Shown here one piece after another: positions 28,689 to 30,526 of a DNA stretch of 64,000 nt. Made by a program: the position numbers and the translations under genes. How positions within the stretch are numbered: position 1 is the first letter of the stretch; each line of letters opens with the position of its first letter. Source of the stretch: an uncultured Hyphomonadaceae bacterium. GTDB lineage: Bacteria; Pseudomonadota; Alphaproteobacteria; Caulobacterales; Hyphomonadaceae. The stretch spans positions 186,001 through 250,000 of the forward strand of contig CALKFG010000005.1 of NCBI GenBank assembly GCA_938084575.1, read 5' to 3'. Under the pieces are notes generated by a model. The model was given only the letters and a program-made list of their open reading frames with translations. It was not told the DNA's origin and did not search any database.

Positions 28689-29708
28689 ATGACGCAAGTG
28701 CCGGGAGTTCTTCCTGATAAAGCGATCACCGCCCTGTTCAGCACAGGCGCGCTGCGCAGCGAAACTCCCCTGGATCCGGACCAGATTCAGCCGGCCAGCC
28801 TGGATTTGCGGTTGTCCGATATCGCCTATCGGGTCCGCGCCAGTTTCCTGCCGGGTGCCGGGCGCAGCGTCGCGGACATGCTGCAGGAGCCTGAAATCGA
28901 GCTCCACCGTCTCGAAATTCCAGAGCGGGGCGCGGTGTTAGAGACCGGCTGTGTCTACCTCGTGCCGCTGCAGGAGCGGCTGCGTTTGCCGGCCGGCGTG
29001 TCGGGGCGGGCCAACCCGAAAAGCTCGACGGGCCGAATCGATGTCTTCACGCGCGTCGTGACCAATAAATCCAAGGCCTTTGATAAAATTCCGACGGGCT
29101 ATGCTGGTCCCCTATGGCTGGAAATCAGCCCCCGAACCTTTCCCATTCTGGTGCGGCCGGGAGATCGCCTGGCTCAGCTCCGGCTGAGGGTGGGCAAGCC
29201 AGACCCCGTGCAGGAAAAAACCGTATCCATCGATCTGCGGGCTCCGAACGGCGCCCCGATTGGCTGGCGGGCCAAGCGGCATGGCGGTCTGATCGATCTG
29301 CGCAAGCTCGCCGGGCACGAGGTGGCCGCGTTTTGGGAGCCGCTTTATGCCCGGGCCGATCGCCTGGTCCTCGATCCGGAGGCCTTTTATATTCTGGCCT
29401 CATGCGAGTCGGTGAAAGTCGCCGCAAACCGGGCGGCGGAAATGGCTCCGATTGCGCCGGAGCTTGGCGAGTTCAGGGCCCATTATGCCGGATTTTTCGA
29501 TCCGGGCTTCGGAACCAATAGCGGGGGCAGCCGTGCGGTCCTCGAGGTGCGCTCAAGGGACGTGCCATTCATCCTGGAACACGGACAGCCGGTCGCAAAA
29601 CTGGTTTATGAACCAATGTGCCGGAGACCGGCGCAGCTATATGGCCATGTCCGCAGCAATTATCAGGGTCAGGGCCTGAAGCTGTCGAAACATTTCGCGG
29701 CGCCCTGA
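28689..29708 (+). CDS. 2'-deoxycytidine 5'-triphosphate deaminase (long alphaproteobacterial-type)
   Basis: DPDQIQPASLDLRLSDIAYRVRASFLPG; LPAGVSGRANPKSSTGRIDVFTRVVTN; AHYAGFFDPGFGTN; duplicated dUTPase-like architecture. Confidence 0.88.
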   Translation: MTQVPGVLPDKAITALFSTGALRSETPLDPDQIQPASLDLRLSDIAYRVRASFLPGAGRSVADMLQEPEIELHRLEIPERGAVLETGCVYLVPLQERLRLPAGVSGRANPKSSTGRIDVFTRVVTNKSKAFDKIPTGYAGPLWLEISPRTFPILVRPGDRLAQLRLRVGKPDPVQEKTVSIDLRAPNGAPIGWRAKRHGGLIDLRKLAGHEVAAFWEPLYARADRLVLDPEAFYILASCESVKVAANRAAEMAPIAPELGEFRAHYAGFFDPGFGTNSGGSRAVLEVRSRDVPFILEHGQPVAKLVYEPMCRRPAQLYGHVRSNYQGQGLKLSKHFAAP

Positions 29709-29733
29709 TCCGGCATCTTCCCGCGAGTGCCAT

Positions 29734-29768
29734 AAAAAAGGGGTGCACACTTTGCAGTGTACACCCCT
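29734..29768 (-). terminator. Rho-independent terminator reading on the minus strand
   Basis: Minus-strand AGGGGUGUACACU-GCAA-AGUGUGCACCCCU-UUUUU. The one imperfect pair is U-G on the minus strand but C-A on the plus strand, so only minus-strand RNA pairs fully. Confidence 0.85.
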
Positions 29769-30116
29769 CTTGGTCTCAAAACCGAATCAGCCTATCGAGT
29801 TCCTGTGACAGTTCTCTCCGACCGCCGGTCTTAATTCCAGAAGCTCCCCGTGCCGCGGACGCGGCTTTGTTGAGCTCCGACCTGTCAAGTGTTTCCACTT
29901 TAAGGCCCTGCGCTTCGGATCGTCCCCCGGTCGCAGATACGGGCACCTCCGGCCTGTCTAGCTCAGACCTTCAGTCCACCGCGTGTTTTTTTCCCTCATC
30001 TCCACCAGGTCCTTTGCATCCTGCTGTTTCCAGCGCTCGCTCCTGACCCGGTTTCGTCCGGACGCAGTGGTCTGTTCCATCCATCAGACCAGTTTGCTCT
30101 GGCTTTTTTCTGGAAC
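29734..30116 (-). ncRNA. Candidate structured non-coding RNA of unknown family
   Basis: Nested stems: CCGGGUC(30051-30045)/GACCUGG(30011-30005), GCUG-GAAA-CAGC(30034-30023), AGGCC+CUGCG(29955-29951, 29936-29932)/CGCAGGGCCU(29912-29903), AAGUG-GAAA-CACUU(29900-29887), GGAGCUC(29878-29872)/GAGCUUC(29846-29840) enclosing GCCGCG-UC-CGCGGC, then the terminator. Possible promoter TCGACT-N16-CATACT (30150-30123). Confidence 0.5.
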
Positions 30117-30122
30117 AATTTG

Positions 30123-30150
30123 AGTATGCTCCGGCCCCAAAAAGAGTCGA
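30123..30150 (-). promoter_or_regulatory. Possible promoter of the minus-strand RNA
   Basis: TCGACT (30150-30145), 16-nt spacer, CATACT (30128-30123). Weak consensus match. Confidence 0.3.
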
Positions 30151-30185
30151 GGGCGGAAAATGAGAATCGACCGGAAGGTGACGAG

Positions 30186-30216
30186 TCGTCCACAAAATCA
30201 GCCGTTCTGTGGATGA
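30186..30216. promoter_or_regulatory. Inverted pair of DnaA-box-like 9-mers
   Basis: TCGTCCACA (30186-30194) and TGTGGATGA (30208-30216, reverse complement TCATCCACA) compared with consensus TTATCCACA; TCCACA-N13-TGTGGA inverted repeat. Confidence 0.35.
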
Positions 30217-30455
30217 ATTCATGCAAATGTTCTGGAAAGAATCACGTTTGCGGGCCGGGATGGCCTCGATCGCGCCAAGCATGCCCCGCAATGGACCGAT
30301 CGACCCGGTATGTAAATGCGGGTTTTGCAGCACATATGATGCGCGGTGTCTGGTCGAGATCTGCAGGGATCCAGATGCGGCCGGCGCTGGAGACCACGCA
30401 AGCCCGCGGCGCGTGCAGGCCGGGTCGGGCTTTCAGGGCGTCGGGGAGCGTTTGG

Positions 30456-30526
30456 AGCGGGTACACGGAATCGAACCGAGATCCTCAGCTTGGAAGGCTG
30501 CTGCACTACCGTTGTGCTATACCCGC
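30456..30526 (-). tRNA. tRNA-Gly (TCC)
   Basis: Minus strand GCGGGTATAGCACAACGGTAGTGCAGCAGCCTTCCAAGCTGAGGATCTCGGTTCGATTCCGTGTACCCGCT; acceptor stem, GGTTCGATTCC T-arm, anticodon TCC. Confidence 0.95.

Follow-up and report, generated by a model that had tools for sequence, protein, structure and literature searches.

Our analysis of the window, a stretch of 64,000 nucleotides from an uncultured Hyphomonadaceae bacterium, supports the presence of an undescribed structured non-coding RNA of about 385 nt that is predicted to be encoded on the minus strand between dcd and a tRNA-Gly gene. The intricate fold of this RNA, as deduced by sequence comparison, is proven by covariation. The RNA forms a new family, "undescribed" being meant here with respect to Rfam 15 and a limited open-access literature; as kinds of molecules, both large structured RNAs of bacteria and ncRNAs of the cell cycle are already known. 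Taken together, the data point to what is probably a Hyphomonadaceae-specific, trans-acting structured RNA whose synthesis is timed with replication via DnaA and GcrA/CcrM, and which would serve in S phase as a protein-binding RNP or scaffold.

The locus and its predicted transcription unit

The gap in which the RNA resides (29709-30452) is bounded by dcd (28689-29708, plus strand), which is oriented convergently, and by tRNA-Gly (30453-30526, minus strand), past which a tRNA-Tyr gene and an rlmB/trmH-type gene follow. An earlier note on this DNA had seen no convincing protein gene in the gap, and no open reading frame is kept across the homologues of the RNA, on which ground a small protein gene was rejected. 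Instead, a minus-strand transcription unit can be read from the sequence, with promoter boxes at 30150-30123, a +1 position near 30116, and a terminator with six T residues ending at 29734. The whole predicted RNA (29734-30116, minus strand; about 383 nt from the predicted +1 at 30116 to the terminator end) is delineated by its fold, its homologues and covariation. Its -35 box TCGACTC (30144-30150, with TCGACT at 30150-30145) contains a GANTC methylation site (GACTC), as it does in 41 of 43 distinct loci; this is the position, at or near the -35/-10 elements, that characterizes a CcrM/GcrA promoter. The -10 box CATACT (30123-30128) lies 16 bp from TCGACT, and an equally spaced xATxxT motif is found in the relatives. 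The intrinsic terminator GAGGGGUGUACACU-GCAA-AGUGUGCACCCCUUUUUU (29734-29769, minus strand), mentioned in the earlier note together with its GCAA loop, is evident by eye and has a covarying stem, yet it was missed on the minus strand by a simple scanner. The borders proposed earlier (about 385 nt, minus strand) fall within a few bases of the predicted promoter start and terminator end and can, because of this agreement, be regarded as those of a gene.

Fold, strand and covariation

For 29734-30116, the predicted folding energy of the minus strand is -162.3 kcal/mol (z = -5.6), a stability that none of 100 shuffled sequences attained, whereas the plus strand of the same segment folds more weakly (z = -2.6). 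Across the homologues, 147 G-U pairs stand against 18 A-C mismatches, which fixes the minus strand, the one to which the earlier note had assigned the RNA on account of G-U pairs in two stems and of its GNRA loops.

In a core alignment of 49 distinct sequences, which was fitted to the covariance model and is consequently not independent of the structure, 93% of the cells pair and compensatory changes occur in 37 of the 42 base pairs; pairing falls to about 40% when the partners are slid. We therefore attach particular weight to an independent test, for which the structure of the window's clade was projected onto an alignment that was built from sequence alone and comprises 28 Hyphomonas-type copies and that of the window. 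In this alignment, from which the structure had not been derived, 86% of the positions pair as compared with 36-47% in slid controls, and both-sided changes are present at 30 of the 42 pairs. When the whole RNA is considered within the window's clade, double changes are seen in 52 of its 82 consensus pairs, including the terminator. The covariation exceeds that of phylogeny-preserving controls, as is expected of a structured ncRNA, and the covariation that the earlier note had proposed to look for in relatives is present in both core alignments.

All elements of the predicted structure lie on the minus strand. The 5' domain (30074-30116) consists, according to fold and alignment, of a stem GUUCCA/UGGAAC that closes the hairpin CCAG-AGCAAA-CUGG (30102-30089). 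It is followed by the core helix P2 (29976-30070), in which CCACUGCG (30070-30063) pairs with CGCGGUGG (29983-29976); backed by covariation and by the independent alignment, with compensatory changes in every pair, P2 encloses P3 and P4. P3 is formed by CCGGGUC (30051-30045) and GACCUGG (30011-30005) and has compensatory changes in six of its seven pairs, while the P4 hairpin (30034-30023) has them in each pair; its GAAA loop (30030-30027) stays a GNRA loop in most relatives. The P5 hairpin GGUCUG-AGCUAGA-CAGGCC (29951-29969) presents a conserved CUAGA loop in the core alignment, and the P6 hairpin CUGCGACCGGGGGACGAUCCGAAGCGCAG (29908-29936), the outer stem of which covaries, is the most conserved part of the RNA. 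P8 (29840-29878), seen in the fold and in the full-length covariation, joins GGAGCUC (29878-29872) to GAGCUUC (29846-29840) and contains an inner hairpin with an AACAAA/GCACGGG internal loop. The stems of P3 and P8 had both been quoted in the earlier note, and they are indeed present and conserved. In the alignment, the 3' domain (29783-29830) contains the conserved CUGUCACA (29811-29804) and GAUUCG (29788-29783). CACA and GAUUCG are its conserved elements, and the part between P6 and the 3' domain is variable; this middle part is stretched in other lineages, where the RNA reaches about 500-800 nt as compared with about 385 nt here.

Phylogenetic range and genomic neighborhood

Relatives of the RNA were collected initially by DNA search, then with a covariance model of the 172-nt core, and finally with a broader covariance model. 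The core model found one copy each in 36 genomes of the Hyphomonadaceae (E <= 1e-16), an aquatic family that includes stalked budding bacteria. Homologues in related Alphaproteobacteria, whose existence the earlier note had left as a matter for inspection, were recovered by the broader model as a single copy in 56 of 105 Hyphomonadaceae genomes; a further match, in genome G034 (E = 6.6e-4), is doubtful. A scan of named genomes identified the carriers as Hyphomonas species and Hyphomonadaceae bins. No homologue was found in the sampled sister families of the order with the broader model or in the other alphaproteobacterial families sampled, and a class-wide sample of 385 genomes gave matches in two Hyphomonadaceae genomes only, one of which is the window's own. 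A search for carriage of the RNA on plasmids gave no match. Three weak order-level matches (L068-L070) were rejected, as they consist of coding-like sequence with long gaps relative to the model; L070 is presumably a DNA polymerase III alpha gene. A copy went undetected, even by a laxer search, in roughly half of the Hyphomonadaceae, among them 12 of the 29 genomes from the genus of the window; this laxer search, the promoter pattern and an unfiltered model scan of the tRNA locus yielded nothing convincing by way of diverged copies in these RNA-negative relatives. Since it is undetected in about half of the family, the RNA is not essential to replication in general.

The genes that flank the RNA vary by lineage and comprise dcd plus tRNA-Gly, an NhaC-type antiporter gene, an exo/endonuclease-family gene, a BrkB-family gene, and rnpB. 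Conversely, the trmH-tRNA-Tyr-tRNA-Gly block is kept in genomes G001, G026, G028 and G062 with neither dyad (see below) nor RNA adjoining it, and the RNA gene lies elsewhere in these genomes. A leader, a trailer or an origin-bound element is therefore unlikely. The RNA gene has its own predicted promoter and terminator, it is unlinked to particular neighbors, and the downstream dcd gene is convergent, in line with the earlier view that it is neither a leader nor a trailer; for want of a common neighbor, a riboswitch was rejected along with these. Because the neighboring genes differ between species, we regard the RNA, as judged from gene order, as a stand-alone gene with a presumably trans-acting product.

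A promoter element shared with replication genes and its probable S-phase control

Nearly every copy of the RNA is preceded by a dyad, TYCACAG-N11/12-CTGTGRA or a very similar sequence, which corresponds to two inverted DnaA-type motifs. In the window, it reads TCCACAG-N11-TTGTGGA (30189-30213, minus strand; inverted TCCACA, DnaA-type), is located 61 bp upstream of the -35 box, and is the sole N13-spaced dyad in the genome. Every Hyphomonas genome tested likewise has only this dyad or very few others. In the relatives, the distance from the start of the dyad to the -35 box is 61-63, 53 or 42 bp; such steps of one helical turn are what one expects if an activator sits on a single face of the double helix. 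Further GANTC sites (starts at 30243, 30187 and 30168, within 30164-30243, minus strand) are situated farther upstream. Overall, GANTC occurs at 20.9 per kb in the promoters of the RNA versus 1.4 per kb in the flanks, a 15-fold enrichment, and still at 11.8 per kb when the -35 site is left out.

The exact palindrome TCCACAG-N11/12-CTGTGGA was also read at 15 non-RNA loci of the family (L088, L090, L092, L098-L100, L103-L109, L114 and L115), where it precedes dnaB in seven cases, nrdB in seven and dnaG in one; six of these target genes were checked by NCBIfam and the others were assigned from near-identical protein starts. The control for the exact palindrome was near zero. In Hyphomonas genomes, the strict dyad was found at the RNA only and not at dnaB or nrdB. 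The DnaA motif of Caulobacter is given as ATCCACA, GTCCACA or CTCCACA, and genes of the replisome and of nucleotide synthesis are under DnaA control (PMC4287350), nrdB among them (PMC3193534); the alphaproteobacterial GcrA protein acts at promoters with methylated GANTC, the site of CcrM (PMC3667746). The boxes upstream of the RNA are of the TCCACA type common to known replication targets, as one would look for in a DnaA-controlled promoter, and the dyads before dnaB, nrdB and dnaG outline a small putative replication regulon in the Hyphomonadaceae that is readable from the DNA. As a separate observation, four genomes from other families of the order each have one copy of the palindrome (L101, L102, L116 and L117).

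Since the dyad is common to dnaB, nrdB and dnaG and GANTC is enriched, control by DnaA plus CcrM/GcrA is the best reading of the promoter, and we infer, with good support, that transcription of the RNA would be switched along with chromosome replication. Several of the Hyphomonas half-sites are TTCACAG, which is a weak DnaA box, so that another dimeric regulator could own the dyad. The RNA might then have a housekeeping role unrelated to S phase, constitutive or linked to stress, for instance in RNA metabolism, and the fact that rnpB follows it closely on the same strand in one Hyphomonas clade would fit such a role. We consider this unlikely, as the rnpB adjacency is limited to that one clade, exact dyads elsewhere in the family precede dnaB, nrdB and dnaG, and GANTC clusters far above background. 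Highly improbable, in our view, is a role of the DNA itself as a DnaA-titrating, hemimethylation-sensing site similar to datA, the transcript being incidental. DnaA-type boxes and a GANTC cluster are indeed gathered in one single-copy locus, but the transcribed part shows compensatory changes over its whole length and an excess of G-U pairs, both of which reflect selection on the RNA, and it is this covariation that largely refutes the notion of a DNA site.

Proposed mode of action

We propose the following model. After firing the origin, DnaA would bind the paired inverted boxes upstream of the RNA gene, and GcrA, positioned at the methylated GANTC in the -35 box, would bring in the main RNA polymerase, as it would at dnaB, nrdB and dnaG. 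The RNA gene would thereby be turned on at the start of S phase, and its product would fold, stop at the terminator, and act in trans as a scaffold or RNP.

How the RNA would act in S phase can be stated with low confidence. We lean toward the binding of a protein partner rather than a function mainly in antisense pairing, because it is the folded core with its purine-rich internal loops that is most conserved, while other segments vary freely in length. The main rival to a protein-binding role is base pairing through the 3' domain. The RNA would in that case resemble the regulatory RNAs CcnA and EcpR1 of the cell cycle: produced during S phase under the control of DnaA and GcrA, it would expose conserved single-stranded segments, namely GCU[AG][GU]CACA...GAUUCG of the 3' domain and the CUAGA loop of P5, for pairing with mRNAs of cell-cycle regulators. 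A promoter of the replication type, a 3' domain that is conserved in sequence and has few predicted stems besides the terminator, and the precedent of CcnA, an ncRNA with such a role in the related Caulobacter (PMC8959179), are all compatible with it. Nevertheless, the best-conserved parts are folded elements and not one long single-stranded seed, and a length of 385-800 nt would be unusual for an antisense sRNA; we hence find a base-pairing regulator rather doubtful.

For the protein-binding reading, a more specific version is possible and is offered tentatively: the RNA could belong to the chromosome replication programme as a dedicated member. Paired DnaA boxes and methylation-sensitive sites would place it under the same control as DnaB, DnaG and ribonucleotide reductase, and it could work as an S-phase RNP, perhaps as a dimer via GUGCUAGCAC/GUGCAUGCAC. 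Of 34 copies that have a 3' domain with GATTCG, 27 carry a palindrome of 8-10 bases, which is GUGCUAGCAC in 22 of them and GUGCAUGCAC in five (L015, L016, L031, L040 and others). The centre of this palindrome changes while its self-complementarity stays, and the RNA might for this reason form dimers. The window's lineage carries CUGUCACA where the 3' domain of other lineages has the palindrome.

Relation to known RNAs and promoters

A scan of the locus against Rfam 15 at a permissive E <= 10 returned only the two tRNAs and chance matches, and no family scored above its gathering threshold in the RNA of the window or of the relatives scanned, a comparison that the earlier note had regarded as decisive for novelty. 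RNase P RNA and the alphaproteobacterial tmRNA resemble the new RNA in length and in their purine-rich conserved internal loops; the locus, however, matches neither RF00010 nor RF01849, just as the earlier note had assumed from missing core signatures, and ARAGORN called no tmRNA there. The true genes are located elsewhere in the genome, that for RNase P RNA (RF00010) at G000:C6:36493-36855 (305 bits) and that for tmRNA (RF01849) at G000:C6:56940-57290 (247 bits).

CcnA of Caulobacter crescentus, a member of the same order, is likewise a cell-cycle-linked ncRNA encoded by a single gene, and a master regulator of the cell cycle, presumably CtrA, binds its promoter (PMC8959179). The CcnA gene is found next to hemE within the replication origin and carries a CtrA box, whereas the RNA studied here has variable neighbors, DnaA-type boxes and GANTC sites. 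A CcnA-like replication-origin RNA is accordingly not supported; with dcd and tRNA-Gly as neighbors in the window and different ones in each lineage, the two are set apart by location and promoter. OLE, ROOL and GOLLD (PMC12286853) are similarly large, multi-domain single RNAs with a conserved core, variable arms and GNRA loops. Their Rfam models gave no match at E <= 10, and the present RNA differs in being smaller, chromosomal and preceded by a replication-type promoter. The Caulobacter promoters controlled by DnaA and GcrA-CcrM (PMC4287350, PMC3667746, PMC3193534) are alike in their upstream TCCACA, in GANTC near the -35 box, and in having nrdB and replisome genes as targets. In contrast to them, the boxes described here are inverted, fixed in spacing and part of one helically phased element, and one of the targets is a non-coding RNA. 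In the open-access literature searched, we found no description of the RNA in Hyphomonas or in large-scale ncRNA surveys.

To our knowledge, few large structured RNAs of bacteria that are absent from Rfam have a fold proven by covariation, and most of these come with no clue to their function. Here, the promoter provides such a clue, as its wiring is common to the replicative helicase, primase and ribonucleotide reductase and additionally includes CcrM sites. If this is confirmed, the programme that governs replication and the cell cycle in stalked budding Alphaproteobacteria gains an RNA component, and culturable Hyphomonas strains allow a direct test of its role. Paired boxes phased to a GANTC-containing -35 box also offer a short signature for finding further members of the regulon.

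Two features of the surrounding loci deserve mention in their own right. Within a single Hyphomonas clade, the RNA is followed at a short distance and on the same strand by the RNase P RNA gene (L016, 777-1152, minus strand; also L021, L027, L052, L015, L022 and L054). In RNA-negative relatives (L134, L137 and L142), 240-310 bases separate tRNA-Tyr from tRNA-Gly, as compared with 34-50 in L126, L130 and L132; this long spacer contains a strong hairpin pair and a T-rich end, and it may represent another small RNA or a REP-like insert.
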